From: Pediococcus acidilactici
GTDB taxonomy: Bacteria > Bacillota > Bacilli > Lactobacillales > Lactobacillaceae
Length of the DNA: 64,000 nucleotides
Assembly (NCBI GenBank): GCA_024970065.1
Contig: CP103908.1
Coordinates: 62,001 to 126,000 of the forward strand
Direction: 5' to 3'
This document shows positions 1 through 39,002 of the stretch, piece after piece. The position numbers were made by a program, and so were the translations under genes. The notes under the pieces are model-generated. The model did not search any database and was not told where the DNA came from. It worked only from the letters and a program-made list of their open reading frames with translations. Position 1 is the first letter of the stretch; each line of letters opens with the position of its first letter.

Positions 1-2
1 CG

Positions 3-449
3 GTTAACCACCAACGGCAAGCACTTGAAGATAACTACCAAAAGGAACTCGATTTTGTAGCCAATAAGTACGCTAAAACCGGAATTCCCGAGGACTTAGC
101 TCAAAAGGCGGCCCGGGAAATGATGGAAAAAGATGCCCTCCTAACGACCGTGCGAGAACGTTACGGGTTTGACATGCACAACTTCACCAGCCCTTATCAA
201 GCGGCGATTGCTTCCATGATCGCCTTTTCGTTGGGCTCGCTATTGCCGTTATTGACGATTACGTTTGCCAAGCATAGTATTCGGGTCCCCCTGACCGTAG
301 TTTCCGTGGTGGTTGCCCTGGCAATTACCGGTTATGCTGCGGCGGTGATTGGGAAAGCGGTTCGTCGGCGGGCGGTCGTCCGTAACGTGATTGCCGGACT
401 ATTAACGATGGGCGCGACCTACCTGATTGGCTCACTATTCGCGCGGTAA
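3..449 (+). CDS. VIT1/CCC1-family transporter, 5'-truncated by window edge
   Basis: An open frame runs from the first bases with no start, so the N-terminal part lies outside the window. The visible 148 residues contain a charged helical stretch (KELDFVANKYAKTGIPED) and then three hydrophobic segments ending in GLLTMGATYLIGSLF. Both the charged insert and the closing 'RNVIAGLLTMG' pattern match the next gene ('RNVIVGIITMF'), which is recognisable as a VIT1/CCC1 (DUF125/nodulin-21-like) iron or manganese transporter. The two genes are 8 bp apart and form a tandem paralogous pair. Membrane transport of Fe/Mn is the family role; the substrate here is inferred. Confidence 0.85.
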   Translation, partial: VNHQRQALEDNYQKELDFVANKYAKTGIPEDLAQKAAREMMEKDALLTTVRERYGFDMHNFTSPYQAAIASMIAFSLGSLLPLLTITFAKHSIRVPLTVVSVVVALAITGYAAAVIGKAVRRRAVVRNVIAGLLTMGATYLIGSLFAR

Positions 450-457
450 GGGGATGA

Positions 458-1144
458 ATGACCATGAAAAAGAAAACTAAAATGAGTATGGACAATAAAT
501 TAAACATGTTGCGGGCCGGCGTACTGGGCGCTAACGACGGAATTTTAACGGTAGTCGGGGTTCTATTTAGTGTGGTCGCGGCCACCACCAACCCGTTCAT
601 CATCTTTATCGCTGGGTTGTCCGACCTTTTGTCATGCGCCTTTTCGATGTCGGCAGGGGAATACGCTTCGGTAAGTTCCCAACGCGATACCGAAAAAGCG
701 GCCGTGGGGGAAGAAAAGCTCCGGTTAAAAACCGATCCAGAAGCTGAATACGAATTAGTGGCGGATTTTTACATGGAAAAAGGGGTTTCGGAAGAGACTG
801 CGCACCAAATTGCCCGTTCGTTAATGGATTCTGCGCCGTTAAAGACGGCGGTCGACGTTCGTTACGACATGGATTTAGACGAATACCTAACTCCGTGGGG
901 CGCGGCAATTTCGTCACTATTTTCTGCCGCGCTGGGCGGAGTCTTTCCCTTAGTGGCGATGACCCTGGCACCTAGTGATTTTAAAATGCAGGCGACCATC
1001 ATTGCGACGGTGATTTCCGTGGCGTTAACCGGCTTTTTGAGTTCCAAACTCGGAAATGGGTTGCCGAAAAAAGCGGTCATCCGCAACGTAATCGTCGGAA
1101 TCATCACGATGTTTATCCATTACTACATCGGAAAATTATTTTAA
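458..1144 (+). CDS. VIT1/CCC1-family (Fe/Mn) transporter
   Basis: 228 residues. The N-terminus has the family signature 'RAGVLGANDGILTVVGVL' (first membrane helix, with the conserved GANDG), then 'AGLSDLLSCAFSMSAGEYASVSSQ', the second helix with the SMxxGEYxSVxSQ motif. A cytosolic acidic loop with glutamates follows (residues ~75-125), which binds metal in plant VIT1. Three C-terminal helices complete the usual five. An AAGGGG ribosome site lies just upstream; ATG 458 or ATG 464 could be used, and 464 has the better spacing. It probably exports or stores iron or manganese. It is co-transcribed with the truncated paralogue before it. Confidence 0.9.
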   Translation: MTMKKKTKMSMDNKLNMLRAGVLGANDGILTVVGVLFSVVAATTNPFIIFIAGLSDLLSCAFSMSAGEYASVSSQRDTEKAAVGEEKLRLKTDPEAEYELVADFYMEKGVSEETAHQIARSLMDSAPLKTAVDVRYDMDLDEYLTPWGAAISSLFSAALGGVFPLVAMTLAPSDFKMQATIIATVISVALTGFLSSKLGNGLPKKAVIRNVIVGIITMFIHYYIGKLF

Positions 1145-1197
1145 CAAGCTCGAAAAATCGCTTCCAAACTTGATTTATAAAGTGAATCCAGCCAATG

Positions 1198-1220
1198 AAT
1201 GCCCGTCTAAAGGCATTTTG
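1198..1220 (+). terminator. Short intrinsic terminator after VIT genes
   Basis: AATGCC / GGCATT inverted repeat with an eight-base loop followed by TTTT, 54 bp after the second VIT gene. The stem is short, so it may be weak. Confidence 0.5.
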
Positions 1221-1225
1221 CGGGG

Positions 1226-1253
1226 TTGTCAAAGAAATCTTATATGTTATGAT
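1226..1253 (+). promoter_or_regulatory. Promoter of mntH
   Basis: TTGTCA (1226-1231), a 16-bp spacer and TATGAT (1248-1253), 38 bp before the mntH ATG. No MntR box could be recognised with confidence. Confidence 0.55.
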
Positions 1254-1291
1254 TGCTGTGGTTCAAGATTGAGGAAAGGAAGGAATTTAAA

Positions 1292-2884
1292 ATGAGTAAC
1301 GAGATCAAGAACCCTAAGAAGCGGCGAAAATTAATTTCGTACGCAAACGGCCGATCCCTAGAGGAAATTAACGGGACGGTCAAGGTTCCTAAAAATATTG
1401 GTTTTTGGAAAACTTTGTTTATGTATTCGGGGCCAGGCGCATTAGTTGCGGTAGGTTATATGGACCCTGGTAATTGGTCAACATCAATCACTGGGGGGCA
1501 AAACTTCCAGTACATGCTAATGTCGATTATCTTGATTTCGAGTTTAATCGCGATGTTGTTACAATACATGGCGGCTAAACTGGGAATTGTGAGTCAAATG
1601 GACCTCGCCCAAGCAATTCGGGCGCGGACCAGTAGAGCATTGGGAATCGTTTTGTGGATATTAACGGAGTTGGCGATCATGGCGACCGATATCGCAGAAG
1701 TTATCGGGGCGGCAATCGCGCTTTATTTGTTATTCCATATTCCGCTAGTGGTGGCGGTATTCATCACCGTATTTGACGTATTATTGCTATTATTGTTAAC
1801 CAAGATCGGTTTCCGAAAAATCGAAGCCATCGTGGTTTGTTTAATCATGGTGATTTTGGTCGTCTTCGTCTACCAAGTGGCCCTTTCGCATCCGAGCTGG
1901 GGCGCAGTGTTTGGCGGGTTGATTCCAACGACTAAAGCATTTGCGACAACCCCAACGGTGGGTGGCATGACCCCGTTGAGCGGTTCGCTAGGAATCATCG
2001 GAGCTACCGTAATGCCGCATAACTTGTACTTGCATTCGGCAGTTTCGCAAACGCGGAAGATCAACCACGACGATGAAGAAGACGTAGCACGGACCGTGCG
2101 GTTTTCTACTTGGGATTCCAACATTCAGTTATCGTTTGCCTTCGTGGTTAACGCACTGTTGTTGGTAATGGGAGTGGCCGTATTTAAGACCGGCGCCGTG
2201 CAAGACCCGTCCTTCTTCGGGTTGTTCCACGCGCTAAACGACACTTCGACATTGAGTAACGGAATTTTGATTGGGGTTGCCAAGACTGGAATTCTATCGA
2301 CCCTCTTTGCGGTAGCCCTCTTGGCTTCGGGTCAAAATTCTACCATCACCGGAACGCTGACCGGGCAAGTAATCATGGAAGGTTTCGTACACATGCGGAT
2401 GCCGTTATGGGCCCGGCGCTTGATTACCCGGTTGATTTCGGTAGTCCCCGTATTAATTTGTGTAATGTTAACTAGTGGTAAGGGCGACATTCAAGAACAC
2501 GAAGCCCTCAACAACTTGATGAACAACTCGCAGGTCTTCTTGGCCTTCGCGTTACCATTCTCGATGGTGCCGTTGCTGATGATGACCGACAGTCGCGTAG
2601 AAATGGGCGACCGGTTTAAGAACAGCTGGATTGTTCGAATTTTAGGCTGGATTTCGGTAATCTTCTTAACTTACTTGAACCTAACTGGATTACCAGATTC
2701 AATCGCGGCCTTCTTCGGCGAAAATGCCAGCGCAGCGGAAATCAGCATGGCTCACGACATTGCCTACGCGTTAATCGTGGCAGTTTTGGCGCTACTCGCG
2801 TGGACGGTAATTGAATTGTATAAAGGAAATAAACGTTACGAACTTGAACTTGCAGAAAAAGCTAACGCAAAGGAGGCGGCATAA
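1292..2884 (+). CDS. mntH: NRAMP-family Mn2+/H+ symporter
   Basis: 530 residues from ATG 1292, which has an AAGGAAGGA ribosome site; the longer frame from 1253 lacks one and overlaps the promoter. The first helix carries the metal-binding 'YMDPGNW' motif (consensus DPGN), and the sixth carries 'GATVMPHNLYLHS' (MPH motif), the two metal-coordinating elements of NRAMP proteins. About eleven hydrophobic helices follow. Lactobacilli accumulate Mn(II) and this is the usual proton-driven importer. Its stop overlaps the start of the usp gene, a pair seen in other lactobacilli, so the two are an operon. Confidence 0.95.
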   Translation: MSNEIKNPKKRRKLISYANGRSLEEINGTVKVPKNIGFWKTLFMYSGPGALVAVGYMDPGNWSTSITGGQNFQYMLMSIILISSLIAMLLQYMAAKLGIVSQMDLAQAIRARTSRALGIVLWILTELAIMATDIAEVIGAAIALYLLFHIPLVVAVFITVFDVLLLLLLTKIGFRKIEAIVVCLIMVILVVFVYQVALSHPSWGAVFGGLIPTTKAFATTPTVGGMTPLSGSLGIIGATVMPHNLYLHSAVSQTRKINHDDEEDVARTVRFSTWDSNIQLSFAFVVNALLLVMGVAVFKTGAVQDPSFFGLFHALNDTSTLSNGILIGVAKTGILSTLFAVALLASGQNSTITGTLTGQVIMEGFVHMRMPLWARRLITRLISVVPVLICVMLTSGKGDIQEHEALNNLMNNSQVFLAFALPFSMVPLLMMTDSRVEMGDRFKNSWIVRILGWISVIFLTYLNLTGLPDSIAAFFGENASAAEISMAHDIAYALIVAVLALLAWTVIELYKGNKRYELELAEKANAKEAA

Positions 2885-3315
2885 TGGCCTTCGATGTGAA
2901 AAGAATTTTAGTTGGAGTGGACGACTCTAAAGACGCTTTGTTGGCTTTTGACTACGCAATTAATTTGGCGAAAGATGCGAACCGTGAATTGGTGATTGTT
3001 TCGGTGCTGGAAAACGACGAAATGAACGTGTTCCAAGCCCTCGACAAGGATTACATTCATGGGGAACGAGCTGAATTAGAACAACACATTTTGACCTACC
3101 AAAAGCAGGCGCAAGATGCTGGCGTTACCAACGTCCGTTGCGTGGTGACGGAAGGCGATCCCGGTGAGACGATTGTTGAAGAGGTAATTCCCGCGGTTAA
3201 ACCAGATTTATTGGTAGTTGGCGCGGAATCGAAAAAGGGTATTGCCCGTCGTTTTGGGAGCCAAGCCGCATACATGGCCAAATACGCTCCGATTACGGTA
3301 ACGGTCGTGCGGTAA
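2884..3315 (+). CDS. Universal stress protein, UspA family
   Basis: 143 residues. It opens with 'RILVGVDDSKDALLAFDYA', the UspA beta-1/alpha-1 pattern, and ends with 'DLLVVGAESKKGIARRFGSQAAYMAKYAPITVTVVR'-type sequence, matching the ATP-binding G-x2-G-x9-G(S/T) loop only loosely. The start ATG overlaps the mntH stop (TAATG), indicating translational coupling. Usp proteins bind ATP or act as stress modulators in the cytoplasm; its role with MntH is not known. Confidence 0.92.
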   Translation: MAFDVKRILVGVDDSKDALLAFDYAINLAKDANRELVIVSVLENDEMNVFQALDKDYIHGERAELEQHILTYQKQAQDAGVTNVRCVVTEGDPGETIVEEVIPAVKPDLLVVGAESKKGIARRFGSQAAYMAKYAPITVTVVR

Positions 3316-3336
3316 TTTAAATTTTAATCAATCTAG

Positions 3337-3373
3337 GAGGACGGCAAAGCAATTGGCACCGTCCTCTTTTTTT
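3337..3373 (+). terminator. Intrinsic terminator of mntH-usp
   Basis: GAGGACGG (3337-3344) pairs with CCGTCCTC (3359-3366), followed by a run of T. It lies 21 bp after the usp stop. Confidence 0.85.
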
Positions 3374-3390
3374 ACGAACGGGGGAGCAAA

Positions 3391-3960
3391 GTGAATTTTG
3401 TAATTATTGGACTAACTTTTCTTAGCGTCAATTTAGATTTCTTTTTTATGCTGTTGTTTTTGGTCCGCAAGTACCGGTTGTCCGCAGTTTTAGGTGGCTA
3501 TTTGTTGGGGACCTTGCTATTGGTGACGGCGAGTTATTTAATTGGTCAAACCCTCTCCGTCTTTTTGCCAGAATGGTTACTGGGAGTGCTCGGGTTCTTG
3601 CCGATTTACCTAGCAATTAAGGATGACGATGACGAAATTAATGCGACCCAGTCCGGTGCTTCGGCGGTTGGGACGGTTTTGGTGACCTATCTTTCCGTTT
3701 GCACGGGATGCAACTTGGCAATCTTTTTGCCAGTTTTAATGCACGCCCAGCTTGCTGAATTTTTCGTTGCCCTGTTATTGATCTTGGGATTGAGCGTAGT
3801 GGCCGTCCTCGCGATTAATTTACTTAGCAAAAATCCGCTTGTCAGCCAAGTGATGGAAAAATATGGCGAGAAACTGATGAAGGTTTGCTATGTGTTGATC
3901 GGGCTGTACGTTTTCTGGGACAGCGGCTTAGTGACCCATTTAATTCGGTTGGTTGGATAA
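3391..3960 (+). CDS. CadD-like cadmium resistance transporter
   Basis: 189 residues with about five membrane helices. It starts at GTG 3391 with a GGGGGAG ribosome site. Features of the CadD family: the long first helix after 'VNLDFFFMLLFLV', the short loop 'GFLPIYLAIKDDDDE' after the third helix (GxxPIxLGxK in CadD), and a central Cys-rich 'VCTGCNLAIFLPV'. CadD proteins give modest cadmium resistance by export. It stands alone between a terminator and the left island repeat. Function is assigned by family only. Confidence 0.8.
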   Translation: MNFVIIGLTFLSVNLDFFFMLLFLVRKYRLSAVLGGYLLGTLLLVTASYLIGQTLSVFLPEWLLGVLGFLPIYLAIKDDDDEINATQSGASAVGTVLVTYLSVCTGCNLAIFLPVLMHAQLAEFFVALLLILGLSVVAVLAINLLSKNPLVSQVMEKYGEKLMKVCYVLIGLYVFWDSGLVTHLIRLVG

Positions 3961-4001
3961 CCGATATTTGATAAGAAAAGTAAAATTGAAATGATGCACC
4001 C

Positions 4002-4071
4002 ACATAGCGCAAAAAAAGACCCCGACTACTGGTCCTAGTCGGGGTCTTGGTGATTCTATGCTTGCCACATG
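4002..4071. repeat. Left 70-bp direct repeat of sulfur island (contains terminator hairpin)
   Basis: A 70-bp sequence repeated in the same orientation at 10916-10985 with only three differences, all in the seven-base hairpin loop (CTGGTCC here, GTGGTAG there). The core is AAGACCCCGACTA / TAGTCGGGGTCTT (4016-4028 / 4036-4048). Read on the minus strand the hairpin is followed by TTTTTTT, so it also works as a terminator for the LysR gene at 4160-5185. About 25 bp beyond the hairpin are fully conserved too. Confidence 0.9.
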
Positions 4072-4159
4072 GTACGTACATTTTAACGGGTTAGAGGGTA
4101 GATTGAAATGTGGAGTCACTGTAATAAAGTACTGAATCTTTTGGAAAGGTTTGATTTTT

Positions 4160-5185
4160 TTATTTTAAAATTTCTCGATACTGGTAGTTATTCATTGAGC
4201 TAACTAAGTCAGTAACGTTAGTTAATTTTAGAATGCTATTTAAAGTTTGTTCAGAAACGGCACCTTCTAGGTAAGATAAAACAATCTTCAGAGAAATTTG
4301 TTCCATGGGTATGCGAATTACATTACATAACGAAGCGTTGAACTTATTGGTAACAAAAAATTGTGGAATGAAAGTACATCCTAGTCCTTGATAAGCAAGG
4401 TTAGCAGCAGTTTCAATGTATTTAGTTTCGAAAGTGGGGTGAATGTTTAGGTCATTTTGGGACATAAATACTTCGATTAAGCGCATAAATCCAGAACCAG
4501 ATTCTATAGTGATAAATTCAGAGCTAATTAAATGGATATTTTGAATGTTTAACGTTTCAATAGTAGTCTTTCCCTTTTCGAAAAGTGGACAAGATTTGTT
4601 TATCACTAAATAAATGGGGATTTCACTTAACATCTTAAAAGATATTTCGCTTGGAAAAATTGGGAGCATCCTAATATGCATATCAATCTTTTTTTGGAGC
4701 AATAATTCTTCTAAGTTAATTGAACGATCTTCTGTAATCCAAATTTTTTGGTGTGGGTATTTGCGTTTAAACCGATAAATTAACGGAGGTAGGATAATAC
4801 TTGCCATTGATTGATTAATTCCCAGTCTAATTCTTGATTGAGGAGGATTACTTAACTCAGTCACTTCGTTAATTAGTTTTTGATAACTAATATTTAGAGT
4901 CTCAATACCTTGAATGAATTTTGCACCTTGAGGAGTTAGCGAAATTGGTCTCTTTTTTCGATTGAGTAACCTAAAGCCAAGCTCTTGTTCAGCATTGTTA
5001 ATATATTTGCTTAAATAAGGTTGAGAAACAAACAAATTCTCAGCTCCCTTGGTGAGGCTGCCACCAGCTAAAACGGCTTTTAAATAAGTTAATAATAGAT
5101 CTGCATCTTTGATATTATCCCACCTAACAAAACGAAATCTTATAACAATACTGTATACATCTGTTGCTTGTGGTTTTAAAAACAA
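4160..5185 (-). CDS. LysR-type regulator of the sulfur island
   Basis: Up to 341 residues if read from TTG 5185. The winged-helix DNA-binding part is clear: 'LTYLKAVLAGGSLTKGAEN' then 'VSQPYLSKYINNAEQELG', followed by a substrate-binding domain. The family normally begins three to six residues before this domain, but here some 24 extra residues have no counterpart. An AGGTGGG ribosome site lies just before an ATC codon at 5113-5111, in frame (M-KDADLLLTY); no ATG/GTG/TTG is near it, so the true start is unsettled. Divergent from the yedE-like gene with LysR-type operators between, so it likely regulates the island in response to a sulfur compound. The gene is AT-rich, like its neighbours. Confidence 0.85.
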   Translation of the reverse strand: MFLKPQATDVYSIVIRFRFVRWDNIKDADLLLTYLKAVLAGGSLTKGAENLFVSQPYLSKYINNAEQELGFRLLNRKKRPISLTPQGAKFIQGIETLNISYQKLINEVTELSNPPQSRIRLGINQSMASIILPPLIYRFKRKYPHQKIWITEDRSINLEELLLQKKIDMHIRMLPIFPSEISFKMLSEIPIYLVINKSCPLFEKGKTTIETLNIQNIHLISSEFITIESGSGFMRLIEVFMSQNDLNIHPTFETKYIETAANLAYQGLGCTFIPQFFVTNKFNASLCNVIRIPMEQISLKIVLSYLEGAVSEQTLNSILKLTNVTDLVSSMNNYQYREILK

Positions 5186-5228
5186 TCAATACTAAGTTCA
5201 ATTATATACAAGTCTACACTTTTTAAGC

Positions 5229-5290
5229 ATAACTATTTGGTTATAGTTGTATTCTACTTTCACCATTTTAAGATAATGTGAATGAAAGTA
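5229..5290. promoter_or_regulatory. Putative LysR operators between regulator and yedE-like gene
   Basis: ATAAC-N6-GTTAT (5229-5244) is a dyad containing the T-N11-A pattern typical of LysR boxes. A second dyad, TACTTTCA (5255-5262) with TGAAAGTA (5283-5290), lies closer to the yedE-like gene and could be the activation half. No single unambiguous -35/-10 pair was found here. Confidence 0.5.
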
Positions 5291-5337
5291 CAATATACAT
5301 TGTGAAACGGTGACCTTATTAGAATGGAGGAAAACAG

Positions 5338-6600
5338 ATGTTACGGCTAGATCGAATTAGTGGATTTATATTATTTTTAATTTTGTTAGTGGGAGCGCCA
5401 ATGATTTTACCATCGAATATGCATTTCATTAGGCTCCTATTAGGCCTAGCACTAGGTTATATACTGTCCAGATCTTATACAGGCTTTGCTGGAAGCGTTA
5501 ACAGAGCCTATAAAAATGGGTCAACAAAACTAATGCGCACAATGATGTTTATGTTTTTTATTACGGCACTAGCTAACGTTAGCTTTTTAATGTTTACACA
5601 AAACATTACCATGTATGCACTATGGGTAAATCCTATTAATTTAGGTTTATTAATTGGTGGAATTCTTTTTGGAATTGGGATGTCCTTTTCATCTTGTTGT
5701 GCATCAGGAGTTTTAACGGATTTAGCAACTGACGCACCACGCGCAGGAGTGACGTTGATATTTTTCTGTATAGGTGTATTCATTGGATTTCCTTTTCAAG
5801 TTCAATCATGGGTAAAAAACTCATGGTGGACTTCACCAACGGGAACTAAGTTTGCTAACGGAGTTTATATGCCAGATCTGTTCAAATGGGATGGAATGAA
5901 TGGTTATTTAGGAGCAGTAGTTTTAACTGCTTTGCTAGCAGGACTAGTTATTTATTTGTCGTATTTATATGAAAAGAAACGGAAGTTAGCTGATGATTAT
6001 CATGTAATACCTTCTGAAAATGTTCAAGATCATCCAGAAGATTTTGATGCTAAAACATTCTCTTTGCGTAATGAAGAAACTTATCGTTACTTGTTAGAAA
6101 AACCTTGGACTTTGAAACAGGGCGCATTTGGGATGATGATTGTGTTTGTTTTAATGATGGGGATTACGAGAAGTGGTTGGGGGGCGTCAACACCCTATGG
6201 ACTTTGGATGGGAAAACTTTTAAATGTTTTTGGAGTATCAGACAATGCTTTATCTCAATTCGCACATTTACCAGCTGGCACATTCTCTGCTCCATTGCTT
6301 AGCAATCCAGTTACTGTACAGAACTTTGGTATTTTTCTTGGCACATTGATTTATATTTTAACTTCAGGATTATTAAAGAAAACTTTACACGCAACGACTA
6401 GTCTTACTCTGAAGAGTGCGTCGATGTTTGCGGCTGGTGGTTTAGCAATGGGCTTTGGTACTCGATTGTCTAATGGTTGTAATGTAGGAGCACTGTATAG
6501 TCCAATTGCACAATTTTCTATTTCAGGTTGGATATTCCTAGCATTTCTAGTAGCAGGAGGAGTTTTGGGAAATATGTTTGCAAAGAGAGTTTATGCGTAG
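5338..6600 (+). CDS. YeeE/YedE-family sulfur (thiosulfate) transporter
   Basis: 420 residues, about ten membrane helices in two related halves. Each half has the family motif: 'GMSFSSCCASGVLTDLATD' (residues ~112-130) and 'GFGTRLSNGCNVGALYSP' (~376-393), which supply the cysteines that pass thiosulfate or other sulfane sulfur in the TsuA/YeeE structure. A GGAGG site precedes ATG 5338. It is the first gene of a five-gene run (yedE-like, reductase, ABC permease, binding protein, ATPase). Substrate is inferred: thiosulfate or a related sulfane-sulfur species. YedE relatives are also linked to selenium, but no selenium gene is seen here. Confidence 0.85.
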   Translation: MLRLDRISGFILFLILLVGAPMILPSNMHFIRLLLGLALGYILSRSYTGFAGSVNRAYKNGSTKLMRTMMFMFFITALANVSFLMFTQNITMYALWVNPINLGLLIGGILFGIGMSFSSCCASGVLTDLATDAPRAGVTLIFFCIGVFIGFPFQVQSWVKNSWWTSPTGTKFANGVYMPDLFKWDGMNGYLGAVVLTALLAGLVIYLSYLYEKKRKLADDYHVIPSENVQDHPEDFDAKTFSLRNEETYRYLLEKPWTLKQGAFGMMIVFVLMMGITRSGWGASTPYGLWMGKLLNVFGVSDNALSQFAHLPAGTFSAPLLSNPVTVQNFGIFLGTLIYILTSGLLKKTLHATTSLTLKSASMFAAGGLAMGFGTRLSNGCNVGALYSPIAQFSISGWIFLAFLVAGGVLGNMFAKRVYA

Positions 6601-6622
6601 AAAATAAAACGAGGCGAAAAAA

Positions 6623-8326
6623 ATGAGTAAAAAAATTATAGTTGTTGGTGGCGTTGCTGGTGGGGCATCTGTAGCAGCGAGAGTTAGAAGGTTAGACGAA
6701 ACTGCTGATATTAAGATATTTGAAAAAGGACCAGATGTCTCCTTTTCTAATTGTTCATTGCCGTATCATCTTTCTAACGTAATCCCTAACGCTGATGATA
6801 TAGTGCTAATGTCGCCTATCCAATTCAAAAAACAATATAATATTGATGCAATTGTTAATCATGAAGTTGTAGATGTAGATGTAGCTGAACAAATGGTATC
6901 TGTAAAGGATGTTATTAGTGGTGAAATACAAAAATACTCTTATGATGAACTGTTTTTGTCACCGGGTGCTGTGCCAATTTGTCCACGTTCAATTGAAGGA
7001 ATTAGTAAAAATAATGTTTTTACAATTCGTGATGTGACAGATATTAAATCTATTCGGGAATTTTTGGAAAAGCATCAAGTTAAAAACGTTTCGGTAATTG
7101 GTGGAGGCTTTATTGGAATTGAAACGGCTGAAAATTTAGTACAAGGAGGTTACTCCGTTAGTTTGATTGAAGGCGCTGAGCATGTTTTAGGGACAATAGA
7201 CCTAGACATGGCTCAAATTATCCAAAAAACGCTATTGGATCATCATGTTAATTTAGTTACAAATGATACCTTAACTGAAATTCGTGACGATACAATAATC
7301 TTAGATTCTGGCAAAGAGTTAAAAGCTGAAGCAGTTATTTTAGCAATTGGAGTTCGCCCTAACACTGAACTAGCCGAAAAAATCGGTGTTACAATCGGTG
7401 AAACTGGAGGAATTAAGGTTAACCAAAACTATGAGACTAATTTGCCACATATTCATGCGGTTGGTGATGCAATTGAAGTATATCATCAGCTATTAAGAAA
7501 GCCTACACGTTTAAGTTTGGCATTTCCAGCTCAAATTGAAGCACGTCAAGCAGTGGACCACATGTATGGACGCCCTATAAAAAATCGTGGTGTAATTGGG
7601 TCTCAATGTATTCCAGTCTTTGAAATGAATGTTGCGTCTACAGGGTTAACCGAAAAAGATTGTCGGCAAAATGGGATTAGTTATCGGACGGCAATGGTTA
7701 TTCCAAAAGACCACGTACCATTACTTCCTAATGCACGTCCTTTGTATATGAAGTTGATATTTGCTTATCCAAGTGGTGAAATTTTAGGAGCACAAGCAAT
7801 TGGTGAAAGCGCCGTTGATAAGCAAATCGATATTATTGCCACGGAAATTTCTCATGGTGGGTATATTGAAGATTTAGAAACTCTTGAACTATGCTATCAG
7901 CCAACTTTTTCTACGGCAAAAAATGCCATAAATATGGTCGGTTTGGTAGCAACTAATGTACTAAACAATGAATTTAAACAAATCTCAGTTAGCCAAGTTA
8001 GAACATTGATAGAGCAAAATGCATTAATTATCGATGTACGTGAGAGAGACGAATATAAAGAGGGACATGTAAAAACGGCTAAGAATATCCCCATGAGCGA
8101 GTTTCGACAACATCTTAATGAAATTCCTAAGTATCAACCGGTTTACATCCATTGCTTAAGTGGCCAGCGAAGTTATAATGTTGTACGTGCACTAACTAAT
8201 TTAGGATACGAACAAGTTTATAATATTGCAGGATCTTTTCTGAATATTTGCGAGTTTGAATACTATGAAGATGTTATTCAACAAAGAGAGCCAATAGTAA
8301 CTAACTATCGTTTCGATTTATTATAA
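6623..8326 (+). CDS. CoA-disulfide reductase / NADH-dependent persulfide reductase with C-terminal rhodanese domain
   Basis: 567 residues, the usual length of the CoADR-rhodanese fusion. Residues 4-30 form the FAD-binding 'IIVVGGVAGGASVAARVRR'. 'SFSNCSLPYH' holds the single redox-active Cys (~43). 'VSVIGGGFIGIETAENL' binds NADH, and 'HAVGDAIEV' is the second FAD motif. Residues ~455-550 are a rhodanese with the active loop 'HCLSGQRS'. Family members reduce CoA-disulfide, CoA-persulfide or polysulfide with NADH. Next to a sulfane-sulfur transporter the likely role is to release sulfide from imported sulfane sulfur. It starts 23 bp after the transporter. Confidence 0.9.
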   Translation: MSKKIIVVGGVAGGASVAARVRRLDETADIKIFEKGPDVSFSNCSLPYHLSNVIPNADDIVLMSPIQFKKQYNIDAIVNHEVVDVDVAEQMVSVKDVISGEIQKYSYDELFLSPGAVPICPRSIEGISKNNVFTIRDVTDIKSIREFLEKHQVKNVSVIGGGFIGIETAENLVQGGYSVSLIEGAEHVLGTIDLDMAQIIQKTLLDHHVNLVTNDTLTEIRDDTIILDSGKELKAEAVILAIGVRPNTELAEKIGVTIGETGGIKVNQNYETNLPHIHAVGDAIEVYHQLLRKPTRLSLAFPAQIEARQAVDHMYGRPIKNRGVIGSQCIPVFEMNVASTGLTEKDCRQNGISYRTAMVIPKDHVPLLPNARPLYMKLIFAYPSGEILGAQAIGESAVDKQIDIIATEISHGGYIEDLETLELCYQPTFSTAKNAINMVGLVATNVLNNEFKQISVSQVRTLIEQNALIIDVRERDEYKEGHVKTAKNIPMSEFRQHLNEIPKYQPVYIHCLSGQRSYNVVRALTNLGYEQVYNIAGSFLNICEFEYYEDVIQQREPIVTNYRFDLL

Positions 8327-8364
8327 CTTAGAGTAGTTAAAAGCATAGGATTTGAGGTAATGAA

Positions 8365-9132
8365 TTGAAAGGAAAGCGAATCTTTTTAAACTTAGCTTCA
8401 TTGGTCGTATTTATTCTAGTTTGGTTAGCAATAACTTCTTTACGATTGGTTTCGCCTGTTCTATTGCCATCACCAAATCAAGTACTACACGCATTTTTAA
8501 ACTTAATTTTCTATGGGTATAATGGTATTCCGTTGCTTAGTCATTATTTAATTACAATAGGGCGGTTAGCGGTTGCAGTTTTCGTTGCGGTAATAATTGG
8601 TATTCCTTTAGGGTTGAGTAGTGGTTACTTGCCTTCACTAAGTACCGTAATTGACCCGATTATCCAATTTATAAGACCAATTCCTCCTTTAGCATACTAC
8701 ACGCTGCTGATATTATGGTTTGGGATTGGAGAAACATCTAAAATAACATTACTATTTTTTGCAGCGTTACCACCAATTTATCTTTCGGCGTATGATGCTG
8801 TTAGGAAACTAGATAGGGAATATTTACTTAGTGCATCTTCATTAGGTGCAACTAAAGAGCAGATTTTTTATCGAATTGTGGTTCCAGCTTCACTTCCAGA
8901 CATTTTTACTGGTTTTCGAACTGCTGTGGGGGTTGCGTACACTACGATTGTTTCGGCAGAGATGATTGCATCTTCTGCTGGAGTAGGTTGGATGGTAATT
9001 GATGCTTCTCATTATCTAAAAAGTGATGTGATTTTTGTGGGAATAATCCTATTAGGTGTCACAGGGATGTTGATAGATTATTTGATCCGTCTCCTAGAAC
9101 GAAGGATTGTTCATTGGAGCGGTGAAAAATGA
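8365..9132 (+). CDS. ABC transporter permease, TauC/SsuC-like
   Basis: 255 residues. It starts with TTG 8365, supported by GAGG seven bases upstream; the nearby ATG 8360 runs into a stop at once. About six helices, with the EAA-type loop 'LDREYLLSASSLGATKEQIFYRIVVP' that contacts the ATPase. The 'FIRPIPPLAYYTLLILWFGIGETSKI' stretch is typical of nitrate/sulfonate/taurine permeases. It overlaps the next gene by four bases (ATGA). Confidence 0.88.
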   Translation: MKGKRIFLNLASLVVFILVWLAITSLRLVSPVLLPSPNQVLHAFLNLIFYGYNGIPLLSHYLITIGRLAVAVFVAVIIGIPLGLSSGYLPSLSTVIDPIIQFIRPIPPLAYYTLLILWFGIGETSKITLLFFAALPPIYLSAYDAVRKLDREYLLSASSLGATKEQIFYRIVVPASLPDIFTGFRTAVGVAYTTIVSAEMIASSAGVGWMVIDASHYLKSDVIFVGIILLGVTGMLIDYLIRLLERRIVHWSGEK

Positions 9133-10121
9133 GAAAGCAAACCTTAAAAATCTTTTTAATTTTTATCACAGTGATGGGAATCGCTCCATTATTAAATGGC
9201 TGTCAGAAAACATCGAAAGAAACGTTACGAACAGTAAAAATTGGAGTACTTAACGTCCCTAATGATGTTTTAACCGCAAGGCAAGATCACACTTTAGTTA
9301 GTGCATTGAAAAAGCAGGGGTATAGGCCAGAATTTATTACTTTTGATTCGGGTGTGGATGCTAATAAGGCACTTATGTCAAATGATATCCAGATGGCAAC
9401 GATGGGACACACTAATGCTGTAGTAGCTATGTCGGTGGGGATTCCAGTAAAGTTAATTTGGCTTAATGATGTAATCGGTAGTAATGAACAGTTAATTTTG
9501 CAAAAGGGAATTAAGTTTAGTAATTGGGATGACTTACGAGGCAAAAGTATTGCAACACCTTTTGCATCGACCTCACATTACAGCTTAATGATGTTGCTTA
9601 AAAAACATCATTTAATAGGGAAAGTTAAGCTTTACGATATGCAAACAACGGAAATTGTAGCAGCCTGGAAACAAAAAAATATTGATGCAGCTTATACTTG
9701 GGAGCCAAGCTTATCTAATTTAAATGACGGTTGTAAGGTAGTTGATAGCGGGACTTTGGCTCAAAGTGGAATAATGACTGCTAATGTAACGCTTGCGACT
9801 GACCAATTTATTAAAAAAGAACCTAAAATTCTAGAAACTATTTTAAGGGTTTTAAATAAGGAGCACCAGCAATATCAATCTGATAGTAAGGTAATTTACA
9901 GGCGGACTGCGGAAGGATTAGGAGTTAATACGACAATTACTAGAAAACAGATTGGAACATCGCAATGGCTTTCTAGAGAAGAGCAAACACGTCTTCTGAA
10001 AGGTGAGTTTATTAGGCAATTTTTTAAAACGGCTGACTTTATGTATCAGCAGCAGACGATTAGTAAGCAACCTGATGAGCAAAAATGCCGACAATTTATT
10101 AGTACAAAATATCTGCAGTGA
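9129..10121 (+). CDS. ABC transporter substrate-binding lipoprotein, TauA/SsuA-like
   Basis: 330 residues. The signal peptide ends in a lipobox 'LLNGC' (Cys ~25), so it is lipid-anchored outside the membrane. The binding domain shows family patterns: 'KIGVLNVPNDV', 'MATMGHTNAVVAMSVGIPVK', 'GKSIATPFASTSHYSLMMLLK' and 'AAYTWEPSLSNL', close to the taurine/aliphatic sulfonate group. The exact ligand cannot be read from the sequence. No taurine dioxygenase or FMN sulfonate monooxygenase is present in the window. Confidence 0.85.
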   Translation: MRKQTLKIFLIFITVMGIAPLLNGCQKTSKETLRTVKIGVLNVPNDVLTARQDHTLVSALKKQGYRPEFITFDSGVDANKALMSNDIQMATMGHTNAVVAMSVGIPVKLIWLNDVIGSNEQLILQKGIKFSNWDDLRGKSIATPFASTSHYSLMMLLKKHHLIGKVKLYDMQTTEIVAAWKQKNIDAAYTWEPSLSNLNDGCKVVDSGTLAQSGIMTANVTLATDQFIKKEPKILETILRVLNKEHQQYQSDSKVIYRRTAEGLGVNTTITRKQIGTSQWLSREEQTRLLKGEFIRQFFKTADFMYQQQTISKQPDEQKCRQFISTKYLQ

Positions 10122-10891
10122 AAGTTAGAGAAGAGAAAATGAGCTTGTTCGAAGCAAAAAACGTTGATTTTAGGTATAAAGATGAACCAAAGCTAGTATT
10201 AGAAAACGTAAATTTGGAGTTATTAGAAAATTCAATAAACGTGTTAGTAGGTCCCTCTGGGATTGGAAAAAGTACGTTATTTAACCTTGCTGCCGGTTAT
10301 TTACAGCCAACAAAGGGTGCTATGTTCATGAAGGGTGAGAAAATTACGGGTCCAAGTTGGCAAAGGGGAGTAGTTTTTCAGGATATGGCATTGTATCCAT
10401 GGTTAAATGTGGCCGAAAATATTTTGTTCGGTCCAAAAGTTAGAAATTTGGATAAGCATGTATTCAAAGCTGAATTTCAGGTTTTATTAGAAGAGACTGG
10501 TCTAGATGAATATGAACGCAAGTATGTTTACGAATTATCAGGGGGGCTAAGGCAAAGAGTTGCTTTAGCACGCAGCTTTATAAATCATCCAGCCATGTTA
10601 ATGCTAGACGAATCCTTTAGTGCGTTAGATAACTTTACAAGGCAAGAAATGCATGCAATCCTGTTTAGGTTATGGGAGAAGATTAAAAATTGCGTGTTCA
10701 TTATTACTCATGATATTGATGAGGCAATATATTTAGGACAAAATGTAATTGTATTAAATAGTTTGGATGCTACATCAGCAACCATTGTACAAAATACGAG
10801 TAATCCCTATTTTAGAAAGGAAATAGGTAAATTAGCACTTGATAATAATTATGTGGTTTTTCGGCAAAGACTCTTGGATATGATTAAGTAA
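10118..10891 (+). CDS. ABC transporter ATPase, TauB/SsuB-like
   Basis: 257 residues from GTG 10118 (four-base overlap with the binding protein), or 250 from ATG 10139. Walker A 'GPSGIGKST', Q-loop 'VVFQDMALYPWLNV', signature 'LSGGLRQRVALARS', Walker B 'LMLDESFSALD' and H-loop 'ITHDIDEA' are all intact. It energises import through the preceding permease and binding protein. Last gene of the AT-rich operon, 24 bp before the right-hand direct repeat. Confidence 0.9.
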   Translation: MKVREEKMSLFEAKNVDFRYKDEPKLVLENVNLELLENSINVLVGPSGIGKSTLFNLAAGYLQPTKGAMFMKGEKITGPSWQRGVVFQDMALYPWLNVAENILFGPKVRNLDKHVFKAEFQVLLEETGLDEYERKYVYELSGGLRQRVALARSFINHPAMLMLDESFSALDNFTRQEMHAILFRLWEKIKNCVFIITHDIDEAIYLGQNVIVLNSLDATSATIVQNTSNPYFRKEIGKLALDNNYVVFRQRLLDMIK

Positions 10892-10915
10892 ATTAGACTA
10901 GCCCACCCGCTAAAT

Positions 10916-10985
10916 ACATAGCGCAAAAAAAGACCCCGACTAGTGGTAGTAGTCGGGGTCTTGGTGATTCTATGCTTGCCACATG
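10916..10985. repeat. Right 70-bp direct repeat of sulfur island
   Basis: Same 70 bp as 4002-4071 with three changes confined to the hairpin loop. It closes the AT-rich block. Its T-tract faces the minus strand, as at the left copy, yet the nearest minus-strand gene (11198-11428) already has its own terminator, so termination alone does not explain the copy. Confidence 0.9.
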
Positions 10986-11075
10986 ATTGCATCTAGAGTA
11001 TAACACAATCATTTGATGACTTGCTACCATTTTAAGTAGGATATTTAATATGTTTTGAAAAAATAATTCCGGCCA

Positions 11076-11104
11076 AAAACGATTCGTATTGAATCGTTTT
11101 TTAA
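11076..11104 (+). terminator. Intrinsic terminator after the sulfur operon
   Basis: AAAACGATTC (11076-11085) pairs with GAATCGTTTT (11091-11100), followed by TT and an AT-rich tail. It is the first good plus-strand terminator after the ABC ATPase gene. Confidence 0.75.
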
Positions 11105-11119
11105 TTTCTAAGGAAGACA

Positions 11120-11155
11120 AAAATCCCCGCTATTATCGCGAATAGCGAAGATTTT
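11120..11155 (-). terminator. Intrinsic terminator of small gene 11198-11428
   Basis: CGCTATT / AATAGCG core with outer AAAATC / GATTTT pairing. On the minus strand it ends in GGGGATTTTTG. Together with the previous terminator it fills the 10892-11197 gap; nothing else was seen there apart from the repeat. Confidence 0.7.
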
Positions 11156-11197
11156 GGAGCCTGTGGTGACTGCACAAGATTTGGACGATTACCCAAA

Positions 11198-11428
11198 TTA
11201 AACAAAGTTAACTTGGAAAGTTTCCCGGCGGGTAACCCCGTCAGTGCGAACTTGTAGGTGATCCTGCTGGGCAGTCCGGGTCACGGCAAAACTTGGATGG
11301 TAGTTACCATAAAAATGAAAATAGAATTTATTTTCTGAATCTGGTTTTGCGGTGACCAAGCAGGCCGAATGATCGGAAGCCCGTACAACTTGGTTAGCAA
11401 CGTTGGTACGACAATTAATTTGAACCAT
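11198..11428 (-). CDS. Small protein of unknown function (76 aa)
   Basis: ATG 11428 has a textbook GGAGG site eight bases upstream, and a terminator follows the stop, so this looks like a real single-gene unit. The product has no signal peptide or membrane helix. It is rich in polar and aromatic residues ('NKFYFHFYGNYHPSFAVTRT') and probably folds as a small beta-rich protein. Base composition is like the core genome, not the neighbouring AT-rich island. No family was recognised. Confidence 0.6.
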   Translation of the reverse strand: MVQINCRTNVANQVVRASDHSACLVTAKPDSENKFYFHFYGNYHPSFAVTRTAQQDHLQVRTDGVTRRETFQVNFV

Positions 11429-11482
11429 AAACCTCGCCTCCGCCTCTAGCTTAACACTATTAAAGGTTAATGGTGCAAGCTG

Positions 11483-12370
11483 CTAATCATTATTAGCAAT
11501 TTCTTTTTGCAAAGTATCTAAGAATAGGCGATTTAAGTTAGGTAACTGGTGATTTTTGCTCCACACCAGGGTGTTAGGTTCCACAACCGCGGGCGCCAAG
11601 GGCCGAAAAACGAGGCCATCCTTGGTAGTGTAATGATCAATTAATTTATCATAGGTCAGCGCCATTACCGCGCCCGTTTGAACTAGCAGACTAGCGTTAA
11701 AGATGAGGTTGTACGTGCCGACAAAGTTGAGCTGGTTAAAAAGTTCCCCGCTCCAGATTTGGAAAGTCCCCCGTTGTGCGGCCTGCCGGGAGGTGATTAG
11801 CGGACGGCCGACCAAGTCGATTGGTTGGATCACGTCCTTTTCAGCAAGCTGGGCCTCCGCCCGCATTAGCACGCCCCACCGATTTTCTTCGGGAAGCTGG
11901 AGGGTGTTGTAATTATTGAGGTTATGGTAGCCCATGAGAACGCCGAATTCCAAAAGCCCGGCATCTAATCCGGCTAAAATGTCCTCATAATCGCCACTCC
12001 GTAAATTCACCCGAACTTCCGGATATTGGCGCATGATCTGGTGGAGAGTTTCCATAAGGGGCGTGATCCCGATGCTTTCTCCGGCGCCGATTTCAATCGT
12101 GCCGCTGATCACGTCTTGTTTTTGGAGGTGATAGGTAGTCTTATTGACTAACCCCACAATCTGTTGGGCACGGCCCAGAAGATAGTGCCCCTCCTGAGTT
12201 AAGGCCAAATGGCGGTGCTCCCGGCGAAAAAGTTTAACCCCGAGTTCGTCTTCCAAGTCAGCAATTTGGCGAGAAAGTGCGGGTTGGGAAACGTTGAGTA
12301 ACTCGGCAGCCCGGGACATGTTTAATTCTTGAGCAATGGTGACGAAGTAGCGTAATACGCGAATATCCAT
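11483..12370 (-). CDS. LysR-type regulator divergent from acetyltransferase/AKR pair
   Basis: 295 residues. The N-terminal HTH starts at residue 1: 'MDIRVLRYFVTIAQELNMSRAAELL' then 'NVSQPALSRQIADLEDELG', an ideal LysR domain, followed by a full-length effector domain. It faces the gene pair 12495-13917, with an ATAAC-N5-GTTAT operator between them. It probably controls those genes. The inducer is unknown. Confidence 0.92.
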   Translation of the reverse strand: MDIRVLRYFVTIAQELNMSRAAELLNVSQPALSRQIADLEDELGVKLFRREHRHLALTQEGHYLLGRAQQIVGLVNKTTYHLQKQDVISGTIEIGAGESIGITPLMETLHQIMRQYPEVRVNLRSGDYEDILAGLDAGLLEFGVLMGYHNLNNYNTLQLPEENRWGVLMRAEAQLAEKDVIQPIDLVGRPLITSRQAAQRGTFQIWSGELFNQLNFVGTYNLIFNASLLVQTGAVMALTYDKLIDHYTTKDGLVFRPLAPAVVEPNTLVWSKNHQLPNLNRLFLDTLQKEIANND

Positions 12371-12388
12371 GGTGGTTAGCTCCTAACT

Positions 12389-12403
12389 ATAACAAAAAGT
12401 TAT
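12389..12403. promoter_or_regulatory. LysR-box dyad
   Basis: ATAAC-AAAAA-GTTAT, a perfect dyad 19 bp before the LysR start in the divergent intergenic region. It fits the T-N11-A rule and suggests autoregulation. Confidence 0.5.
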
Positions 12404-12494
12404 CAAAAATCATGTTTAATAAGTATTTAACATTACTATAGAACCCCGCTAAACTATAGTCAATCAGTTATTTGAGTAGCAAGGGGATGAGCAT

Positions 12495-13031
12495 TTGGAA
12501 TCTAAATTGGATTTAGGCACCGCCGCTTATAGTCAAGTTGACGAAGTGGTAAAAACTAATCAACGGCTTTTACAACAGTTAAATACTCAGGAGCATTCGG
12601 CTGCTGAAGTCCGTCAGCTGGTCAGTCAAATTACTAACGAACGAATTGACGAGAGCACCGAAATTCGGTTGCCGTTCCGCACCGATTTTGGCCGGAACCT
12701 TCACATTGGAAAAGATGTTTTCATTAATAGTGGGGCCATGTTTGTTGACCTAGGCGGAATTTACTTGGGCGACCACGTTTTAATTGGGCCTAACGTAACC
12801 ATCGCTTCGGTCAATCACCGGATGGCACCGCAGGAACGCCGGCATTTGAACCTGAAGTCGGTGTACATTCACCAAAACGCCTGGCTGGGGGCTAACGTGA
12901 CGGTGACCCCCGGAGTAGTAATTGGCGAAAACGCGGTGGTGGCCGCGGGTGCCGTGGTGACCCGAAACGTACCGAAAAACACCGTAGTAGCGGGAGTGCC
13001 TGCCCGCGTAATTAAGAAGATTAAGGATTAG
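12495..13031 (+). CDS. Sugar O-acetyltransferase, left-handed beta-helix (Maa/LacA/NodL type)
   Basis: 178 residues. TTG 12495 is chosen because AAGGGG lies eight bases upstream and the ATG at 12487 meets a stop after nine codons. Hexapeptide repeats form the left-handed beta-helix ('GKDVFINSGAMFVD', 'GDHVLIGPNVTIAS', 'GENAVVAAGAVVTRNVPKN'). The catalytic His is in 'ASVNHRM'. The C-terminus 'VVAGVPARVIKKI' is typical. The family acetylates maltose, galactosides or Nod sugars with acetyl-CoA. It is followed 13 bp later by an aldo/keto reductase. Confidence 0.88.
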   Translation: MESKLDLGTAAYSQVDEVVKTNQRLLQQLNTQEHSAAEVRQLVSQITNERIDESTEIRLPFRTDFGRNLHIGKDVFINSGAMFVDLGGIYLGDHVLIGPNVTIASVNHRMAPQERRHLNLKSVYIHQNAWLGANVTVTPGVVIGENAVVAAGAVVTRNVPKNTVVAGVPARVIKKIKD

Positions 13032-13044
13032 GAGGAATTTGGAG

Positions 13045-13917
13045 ATGAACGTTTTTGAAGAAAGTTTTACGTTAAATAATGGAGTAAAGATTCCTAAGTT
13101 AGCATTAGGAACTTGGGAAATTCCGGATGATCAAGTTGCCGAAGCGGTGCGGCAAGCCGTTAAAATCGGCTACCGGCACATTGATACCGCGCAAGCGTAT
13201 GGTAACGAACGCGGGGTTGGTGAAGGTGTTCGAACCGCTGGCGTAAAACGTGAAGACCTTTTCGTGAACTCAAAAGTAGCTGCTGAAATTAAAGACTACG
13301 AAGGTGCGAAGAAGTCGATTGACGAAACCTTAGCGAAAATGAAGTTAGACTACTTGGACATGATGATTATTCATAATCCGCAACCATGGGTCGAAGTTAA
13401 CCAATCTAACGACCGCCATTTTGCGGGTAACGTGGAAGTTTGGCGTGCTCTAGAGGATGCCATGCGTGCTGGCAAACTACGGGCCATCGGGGTTTCCAGT
13501 TTTGAAAAGGAAGACCTTGATAACCTTACGGCGCACAGTGACACCAAGCCAATGGTCAACCAAATTTTGACTCACATTGGTGCGACGCCAGAAGAGTTGA
13601 TTAATTACTCGCAAGCTAACGACATTGTGGTTGAAGCCTTCTCGCCAATTGCTCATGGTGCCGCAATGCATAACGAAGCCATTAAACAAATGGCCGACAA
13701 GTACAACGTTAGCGTACCGCAATTATCAATTCGCTACGCATGGCAATTAGGATTGGTTGTTTTACCAAAGACCGCTAATCCAGACCACATGCTGGCTAAC
13801 GCAGAGCTAGATTTTGAAATTAGTGCCGCCGACATGGCAGTTTTGAAACAAATGCACGGGATGGATTACGGGGATGCCGATATCTTCCCAGTGTTTGGCG
13901 GTAAGATGAAGGGTTAA
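13045..13917 (+). CDS. Aldo/keto reductase
   Basis: 290 residues from ATG 13045, nine bases after GGAGG. Catalytic tetrad of the AKR family: Asp and Tyr in 'HIDTAQAYGNERGVGEG', Lys in 'FVNSKVAAEI', His in 'DMMIIHNPQPW'. The NADPH site includes 'VVLPKTANPDHMLANAE'. It reduces small aldehydes or ketones. It shares a transcript with the acetyltransferase and ends in a strong terminator. Confidence 0.93.
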   Translation: MNVFEESFTLNNGVKIPKLALGTWEIPDDQVAEAVRQAVKIGYRHIDTAQAYGNERGVGEGVRTAGVKREDLFVNSKVAAEIKDYEGAKKSIDETLAKMKLDYLDMMIIHNPQPWVEVNQSNDRHFAGNVEVWRALEDAMRAGKLRAIGVSSFEKEDLDNLTAHSDTKPMVNQILTHIGATPEELINYSQANDIVVEAFSPIAHGAAMHNEAIKQMADKYNVSVPQLSIRYAWQLGLVVLPKTANPDHMLANAELDFEISAADMAVLKQMHGMDYGDADIFPVFGGKMKG

Positions 13918-14013: not shown

Positions 14014-14772
14014 CTAGTTAGTTTTCGGTTTAGCTTCAACCCAACTAGATAGCAAGTAGATGTTGATTGCAGAAAAAATCAGCAAAGTTATCAGTACGTA
14101 GATTGGGCTTAAGTAAAATTGAAGGTCGGCATTAGCGTCAAGTAAAGCAGTATGATGCTGAGCAATTAGCATAAATACGTTACTTATTAACTCCATGATG
14201 CGTCCAAAAATATACAAAATAACGACTACCAAGATAATTTTTGAAATCCGTTGGCCAGCCCTTGGCAAGAAATTACTGATCATCTCGGTAAGTAGATGAA
14301 CTAAAGTAATCAGGGCCCAGAAGTTTAGTACCGCGAAGATAAGGGTCAGGATGATTGAAACGGTTAGCATAAAGGTTGAACCTGAAAAACCATCTACAAA
14401 GGTTTTGATCGTCATGTGCCAGTGAAAAATCAACGCAAAGATGACAACGCATAATCCAAAGTAGGCAAAACTGAGGAAAGTGGTGATCAAATTTGCCCAG
14501 TATAATTTTCCATTTGAAACCGGAATTAATCGGTATGTACTAGCGGTGTAGACGCGTTCGTTACGAATGGTTAATAAAATGTAAAGAAGCATACTAGCTA
14601 ATCCCAAAACGGATTCAAAGGTGGCAAAGAGTGCGCCAGGGGTTGCGGATATACGGATCATTTCGTACAGCGTAATGACGACCGCAGCTACCGCGCTGAA
14701 TCCTAGTACTTGGTTAGCAAGGCGGAATTTTTCTTGGAACATTGCCTTGGTTAAATCAAAAAATTTAGTCAT
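14014..14772 (-). CDS. ABC transporter membrane protein (drug/peptide-stress type)
   Basis: 252 residues from ATG 14772, nine bases after GGAGG; the start overlaps the last eight bases of the ATPase gene. About six hydrophobic helices, with no binding-protein motif. It is the permease half of a three-gene GntR-ATPase-permease operon. Such YtrA-type operons respond to cell-wall or membrane stress in Firmicutes, but the substrate here is unknown. Confidence 0.82.
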   Translation of the reverse strand: MTKFFDLTKAMFQEKFRLANQVLGFSAVAAVVITLYEMIRISATPGALFATFESVLGLASMLLYILLTIRNERVYTASTYRLIPVSNGKLYWANLITTFLSFAYFGLCVVIFALIFHWHMTIKTFVDGFSGSTFMLTVSIILTLIFAVLNFWALITLVHLLTEMISNFLPRAGQRISKIILVVVILYIFGRIMELISNVFMLIAQHHTALLDANADLQFYLSPIYVLITLLIFSAINIYLLSSWVEAKPKTN

Positions 14773-15980: not shown

Positions 15981-16016
15981 AAAAACTAGCGCAAGTCTAT
16001 ATTTGCGCTAGTTTTT
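15981..16016. terminator. Bidirectional terminator
   Basis: AAAAACTAGCGCAA (15981-15994) pairs perfectly with TTGCGCTAGTTTTT (16003-16016). On the minus strand it ends the secreted-protein gene 16038-17066. Confidence 0.85.
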
Positions 16017-16037
16017 GGTATGAAATTAAGGCGATAT

Positions 16038-34185: not shown

Positions 34186-38905
<4,720 letters not shown>

Positions 38906-39002
38906 AGTAGAACGTGGCAAGTAACTCGAAAGAAAATGTAGATATTATTCAGTTTTGAGGGGACAAAAGTTTTCTCAAGTGATAACGCAAGTTAGCACAG
39001 AG

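Follow-up and report, generated by a model that had tools for sequence, protein, structure and literature searches.

A likely sulfur-uptake operon between two putative toxin-less par/Fst antitoxin genes in Pediococcus acidilactici

We analysed a 64-kb stretch of Pediococcus acidilactici DNA (contig CP103908.1, positions 62,001 to 126,000; called the window below), in which an AT-rich block of six genes lies between two 70-bp direct repeats. The repeat appears to correspond to the antitoxin part of a par/Fst type I toxin-antitoxin locus, and the block to have been gained at it. In such loci two convergent RNAs have a common terminator and a pair of direct repeats, DRa and DRb, as described in two papers (PMC7472228; PMC5608710). 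DRb repeats the ribosome site and start of the toxin. What is new here is the identity of the repeat as the antitoxin half of a par/Fst locus, beyond a plain terminator.

Results

The locus

The two copies of the repeat lie at 4002-4071 and 10916-10985, in the same orientation and 6914 bases apart from start to start, and are identical at 67 of 70 positions. The mismatches, at repeat positions 28, 33 and 34, all fall within the 7-nt loop of a hairpin, which reads CTGGTCC in one copy and GTGGTAG in the other. The stems and tails are the same, and outside the loop the left and right copies agree at 63/63 positions. The GC content in 1-kb steps is 0.338-0.373 across 4001-11000, against 0.448-0.512 at 1-4000 and 0.453-0.485 at 11001-13000, and the composition of the block is foreign. 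The original prediction, made from the letters alone, had described this enclosed AT-rich block and placed all differences in the loop, and the coordinates and composition bear it out. It was also right that the right side has a minus-strand terminator of its own, which we found at 11155-11120, to the right of the right copy, and that no integrase or transposase is present among the open reading frames and domains of 4002-10985.

The features of the locus are listed here in window coordinates; G004 is the genome of a sister species that lacks the block, and G001 C18 a par-like locus described below.

3391-3960, plus strand: cadD, cadmium resistance transporter, the left flank (PF03596; 96% identical ortholog at the G004 empty site; a 97% identical cadD fragment, P0129, bears the name P. 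acidilactici)
3944-3995, plus strand: possible remnant of the 3' end of an Fst toxin gene, overlapping the end of cadD in another frame (local alignment to the G001 C18 toxin)
4002-4071, minus strand: left 70-bp copy, RNA II-like antitoxin unit (hairpin 4016-4048, DRb 4049-4066, minus-strand T-run)
4080-4087, minus strand: RNA II -10-like motif of the left copy, outside the 70 bp (ATTTTAAC on the plus strand; family motif ATTATAAC)
4160-5101 (open frame up to 5185), minus strand: LysR-type regulator of the block (PF03466, PF00126)
5338-6600, plus strand: YeeE/YedE-type sulfur transporter (PF04143; TsuA models far under their cut-off)
6623-8326, plus strand: coenzyme A-disulfide-reductase-like flavoprotein with a C-terminal rhodanese domain (TIGR03385, 407.5 bits, cut-off 578.8)
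8365-9132, plus strand: ATP-binding cassette (ABC) permease, TauC/SsuC-like (PF00528; NCBIfam under cut-off)
9129-10121, plus strand: ABC substrate-binding protein, TauA/SsuA-like (NCBIfam under cut-off)
10118-10891, plus strand: ABC ATPase, TauB-like (PF00005; NCBIfam under cut-off)
10900-10915, plus strand: par spacer, right copy only (AGCCCACCCGCTAAAT; first 15 bases as in G001 C18)
10916-10985, minus strand: right 70-bp copy, antitoxin-RNA-like unit (hairpin 10930-10962, DRb 10963-10980)
10997-11004, minus strand: RNA II -10-like motif of the right copy (AGTATAAC on the plus strand; the same in G004)
11483-12370, minus strand: LysR-type regulator of the right flank, collinear in G004

The block thus consists of a LysR gene facing left followed by five transport and redox genes on the plus strand. 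Its role is likely sulfur uptake, which we grade as likely rather than proven because the NCBIfam matches of all six genes fall under their cut-offs.

A search of the whole genome, a single contig of 1,995,187 bases, returned only two full copies of the 70 bp; the remaining three rows were two minus-strand self-matches of both hairpins and one 22-nt match. Scattered full copies, the outcome that the original prediction had set against itself, were not seen. A different hairpin in the same genome (L005, about 1501-1522; contig 296294-296315) matches the terminator-DRb part of the repeat at 20 of 22 bases.

The empty site in the sister species

Our comparison is between species, with one genome for each. 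G004 belongs to the same genus and has about 93% identical DNA; window 1-4071 aligns to it at 93.2% and window 10917-13048 at 93.9%. Both alignments meet on a single copy of the repeat, the block is absent, and the junction falls exactly at the repeat. The loop of the single copy, CTGACAC, is unlike either loop of the window, and the DNA at 11198-11483 is conserved in G004. These observations support the block as a single unit, either there or missing as a whole, and supply the block-free relative with one repeat copy that had been foreseen.

Identity of the repeat

A longer query found relatives of the repeat in G001, with 82% identity over 67 bp to C18 (expectation value, E, 1.2e-12). Just upstream of these relatives short peptides with YWLNN-type tails are encoded, and after the hairpin the toxin's ribosome site and start are repeated; the toxins of the reference par loci are of the YWLNN or YWLNTRNKK type. 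Weaker relatives occur on Pediococcus inopinatus plasmids (three records), and an Fst-family toxin is annotated just upstream in both of the two records opened.

DRa and DRb repeats were present in all three intact reference loci, where DRb compared with the toxin start region gave p values of 0.000, 0.003 and 0.000 (1000 shuffles). The window terminator, with its 13-bp stem and minus-strand T-run, aligns with the par terminators, and by eye the window DRb contains an ATG where other copies of DRb mirror the toxin start. We built a covariance model, R1, from eight sequences with both window copies among its training set, and it scores these trained-on copies at 71.1 bits (left) and 93.7 bits (right). 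Ten full-length sites in the genus that were not used for training reach at least 35 bits, and eight of them have the DRa/DRb pair (p 0.000), the exceptions being G001 C13 and G006 C54. Six weaker R1 matches in the window's own genome, taken as a control (23.5-29.3 bits, five places), are hairpins with no DR pair in any, and therefore look like ordinary terminators. As DR pairs are found in the par sites and are absent from the controls, we assign the family to par and the window units to its antitoxin halves. Judged by these sequence features, the two copies are very probably orphan antitoxin genes of the par family that have no toxin.

DRb (4049-4066 and 10963-10980) also resembles, with 1-3 mismatches, the GAGDSMLAG-coding stretch of a sugar-kinase-like frame, which we take to be fruK-like. 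The stretch reads GGTGATTCAATGCTTGCT in the window's own genome, and similar ones occur in relatives. By our estimate fewer than 0.1 matches of this kind are expected per genome at two mismatches, and we take the likeness as probably due to chance. A minus-strand RNA of either copy would be antisense to this stretch.

In the parts of the literature searched that were accessible, we found no paper on Pediococcus with Fst systems and nothing on point about recombination at antitoxin genes.

Flanks and promoter motifs

The par spacer AGCCCACCCGCTAAA precedes the right copy, is identical in G001 C18 (15/15 bases) and is related to the spacers of G001 C45b and two plasmids. Ahead of the shared part, the left copy and the G004 copy show no more than CACCC(A/G), without a full spacer. 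On the promoter side, 10 of the 13 par sites scored (one further site, unlocatable, was dropped) carry the -10 motif ATTATAAC at a distance of 28-39 nt beyond the hairpin and with no more than one mismatch, a count that is partly circular since the motif was picked by eye from the same loci. The left copy has ATTTTAAC at an offset of 33 from the hairpin, with one mismatch, and 0.5% of 5000 shuffles were as good; the right copy has AGTATAAC, as in G004, at an offset of 36, again with one mismatch (1.3% of 5000 shuffles). Judged by these motifs, each copy could be an intact RNA gene.

The right flank of the right copy is that of the sister species, and the promoter motif after the left copy is the left copy's own. 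This arrangement fits two reciprocal hybrids, such as one crossover inside the 70 bp would leave. It fits integration and the reverse event equally.

The missing toxin

The Fst toxin profile NF033608 gave at best 13.7 bits over 9 residues in the window's own genome, under the cut-off of 26; as the profile is passed by none of 12 genomes, true loci included (G001 C18, 12.8 bits; C45b, 24.9 bits), a diverged toxin could be missed. There was no DRa within 330 bp of the left copy (p 0.52), the right copy (p 0.91) or the G004 copy (p 0.35), and no other DRb-like site genome-wide with up to three mismatches, save two in open coding frames.

A trace of the toxin may lie in the end of cadD, which aligns to the 3' end of the G001 C18 toxin gene with a score of 38, above all 2000 single-base shuffles (maximum 37), in one of nine comparisons made. 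Among the others, the left copy against C45b and against the plasmid gave p values of about 0.025, the right copy against C18 0.0025, and G004 against C18 and C45b 0.0015 and 0.0035; the remaining three exceeded 0.05. The cadD proteins end in RLVG in the three members of the group that we compared, while the other homologs compared differ, often ending in HLIALF. Taken together this is only suggestive of a toxin remnant that cadD may now overlap.

Distribution of the operon

At E 1e-40, YeeE was found in one of 12 genomes of the genus and in 10 of 397 genomes of the family (the 12 included), one of the ten, G133, being only 34% alike. Universal presence among relatives, which would have spoken against the original prediction, is thus not what the transporter's distribution gives. 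The YeeE protein cluster has a single member, against 119 for cadD, and the closest relative among 7999 candidates scored is 71% identical. Because YeeE is rare, alone in its cluster and 71% identical to its nearest relative, and because the GC content is foreign, we prefer gain over loss: the operon is likely a recent and rare gain in a Pediococcus.

The five transport and redox genes follow one another in the same order in all eight other genomes of the family that have a close YeeE (64-70%; L112-L119), with an extra YeeE-type gene between in L115. The window has the same YeeE, rhodanese-flavoprotein and Tau/Ssu-type ABC gene order as Companilactobacillus and other Lactobacillaceae. It differs in its surroundings, as a LysR-type match lies beside YeeE in only five of those eight genomes (the best 41% alike, in L115) and none of the 10 operon loci of the family has a par-like unit above 21.8 bits with R1. 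The repeats listed for the same 10 loci include none like the window's, though in two of them (L007 and L118) the operon is flanked on either side by direct repeats of another sort. The operon is a unit within the family, and its antitoxin frame is seen only in this genome.

Those other repeats are unlike the window's kind: in L118 they are direct repeats of 34-107 nt in several copies (133-421 and 14575-15411), and in L007 a 31-nt direct repeat at 81% (2616-2646 and 16003-16033). L115 (genome G392) has a 79-bp repeat, 85% alike (9085-9163 and 10497-10575), near the starts of two YeeE-type genes, perhaps a common regulator site for the LysR protein.

A sensitive plasmid search with the block gave three matches of 2% coverage each (two flavoprotein genes and one unannotated). 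As to a phage vehicle, we found no match to the region of the right copy, and the exact 22-nt pattern occurred 0 times in viral contigs.

Other par sites in the family

A search for cargo across 301 genomes of the family gave an R1 match at E 1e-4 in 33, and from that listing three distant same-strand par pairs (G258, G226 and G213 C55) were chosen by eye. The G258 element, about 11 kb, has genes for a phage integrase, KilA-N, VapE-like and primase proteins and a Mutator-type transposase. It is bounded by a 23-bp perfect repeat (L200 1704-1726 and 13002-13024) at the 3' end of a transfer-messenger RNA (tmRNA) gene (1358-1725), with a par locus 0.3 kb to the right of each copy, one inside the element and the other just beyond. 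We rejected it as par-mediated cargo, as it fits insertion at the tmRNA 3' end with its own integrase instead. The G226 pair was rejected as well, since it encloses apparent core genes of the dnaA/dnaN type, as read from translations. The G213 C55 pair spans 1.8 kb. The window has the only case of cargo between par antitoxin copies that we can demonstrate.

G001 C45 (L120 2613-3161) contains two hairpin and DR units, 82% alike and 482 bp apart; in the first of these an Fst-like toxin frame is joined directly onto the DR. It looks as if DRa and DRb had recombined between two loci, a sign that these repeats recombine. Upstream of the chimeric unit, C45a, there is no DRa (p 0.136); a fused unit should look like this, and the result adds no further confirmation.

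Elsewhere in the window

The window also contains a ribosomal RNA operon (16S, 23S, 5S; 34186-39119), three 77-bp repeats with inverted arms at a spacing of about 98 bp (52693-52966), unrelated to the block, and an array with repeat steps of 18, 21 and 39 bases (44302-44821).

Discussion

The two copies fit the known par/Fst loci (parpAD1, Lpt of L. rhamnosus and the chromosomal par EF0409) in their common terminator and DRb-like sequence; the right copy keeps the toxin-terminator spacer, and both have an RNA II -10-like motif at the offset usual in the family. They differ from these in having no toxin gene that we could find, no DRa and no RNA I part, and in that the two toxin-less copies enclose an unrelated operon.

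It seems reasonably probable that the operon was gained by a single crossover at the antitoxin gene. The ancestral chromosome would have had, next to cadD, one decayed, toxin-less copy, the state kept by the sister species. The incoming DNA, most simply a circle, would have carried the foreign six-gene sulfur operon together with a related antitoxin gene, and one crossover inside the common 70 bp would have joined it to the chromosome. The left hybrid would then combine the chromosomal left flank with the incoming promoter, and the right hybrid the incoming spacer with the chromosomal right flank; the reverse crossover could delete the operon. We infer the direction of the event, the circularity of the DNA, the use of the host RecA and the transcription, past or present, of the RNAs. 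The model is what we take to be Campbell-type integration, which it resembles in an insert bounded by direct repeats, reciprocal parental flanks and a single copy at the empty site. It differs in that the homology is only about 70 bp of an RNA gene and the insert has no replicon. The original prediction had come near to this in proposing recombination between terminators, where recombination stands as part of the best reading and "terminator" proved too narrow for what appears to be the antitoxin half of a type I locus.

Several results weigh against this reading. Rfam at its curated thresholds gives no match to the repeats. At the G001 relatives it gives weak small-RNA scores (SpF66, 33.3 bits, cut-off 42; RefA9, 30.2 bits, cut-off 49), and the window copies score 19.3-19.9 bits with SpF66, the left one also 25.5 with an unrelated family. 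Neither copy has a full RNA II promoter in a sigma-70 scan, and when promoter sides and flanks were aligned to par loci, p exceeded 0.1 in all six comparisons. No plasmid record matched 3300-11500 by megablast, YeeE was not found among plasmids at E 1e-20, and we found no plasmid bearing the block. The block has no replication gene, and the circle is for that reason hypothetical. The three distant pairs picked by eye held no second clear cargo. The proposed event has a mirror image that fits the flanks equally, in which G004 lost the block by deletion and the two-copy state is ancestral, and tandem par arrays are, by eye, common in the family, so two copies could predate the block.

This last point leads to the alternative that we take most seriously, though we think it rather unlikely, in which the copies are an ancestral tandem par array, the operon entered between them by another route and the sister collapsed the array to one. 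Tandem copies 364-482 bp apart are found in G001 C45, G001 C33 and G002 C41, with others in the family by eye, and the separate promoter motifs and spacers of the left and right copies are as expected of tandem loci. Tandem units can also be close, with stretches of 18-35 nt in G001 C33 that are 94-100% alike. However, whole units differ more, with cores at 74% and 75% (G226 a/b and G213 C13) and 82% over 67 nt (G001 C45), in contrast to the identity of the window copies at every position outside the loop, and this history requires a second insertion event of unknown kind.

The other explanations fare worse. Islands insert at the ends of genes and bring a matching end with them, and the block might be one whose attachment core lies in the terminator and whose integrase was lost or acts in trans. 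The integrase-bearing element between two par loci in G258 offers a parallel, but that insertion is explained without par, the block genes include no integrase, and the par-like parts of the window extend past the 70 bp to the spacer and promoter motif, beyond what an attachment core needs; we regard an island of this kind as improbable. Only slightly less probable is that the copies are two ordinary, lineage-specific terminators irrelevant to the arrival of the block. Each has a minus-strand T-run, at which the left one could terminate the LysR transcript and the right one antisense transcripts. We downgraded this reading on the copy number (only two full copies genome-wide), the empty site that joins exactly at the repeat, and a likeness to par that reaches DRb and the promoter motif. 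Duplication of a target site by a transposon-like insertion, the other mechanism in the original prediction, would account for direct repeats around the block and a single copy in the sister. To our knowledge 70 bp far exceeds known target duplications, and there is no transposase among the block genes. A simple duplication is further disfavoured because it would not carry the spacer of the right copy, absent in full at the left and G004 copies, and the 15-bp par spacer outside that copy would be a coincidence. This spacer, with the par-like sequence outside the repeat, led us to reject a duplicated target, which we consider very improbable.

If gain by a single crossover is the true history, foreign metabolic operons without an integrase or transposase could settle in lactic acid bacteria by way of antitoxin genes, although type I antitoxin genes are usually viewed as parts of plasmid addiction systems. 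As a speculative extension, which we hold to be doubtful, toxin-less par antitoxin genes might be portable homology docks, with operons leaving as a one-copy circle and entering at any other copy, plasmid-borne or chromosomal, through host recombination, and the retained RNAs might shield the cell from plasmids with a matching toxin. According to PMC7472228, pairing with the toxin RNA probably begins at the antitoxin loop, and the locus is a natural test of orphan RNA antitoxins that differ only in the loop. For food microbiology, the locus marks an operon for the likely uptake of thiosulfate or sulfonate as a probable recent and rare gain in Pediococcus.

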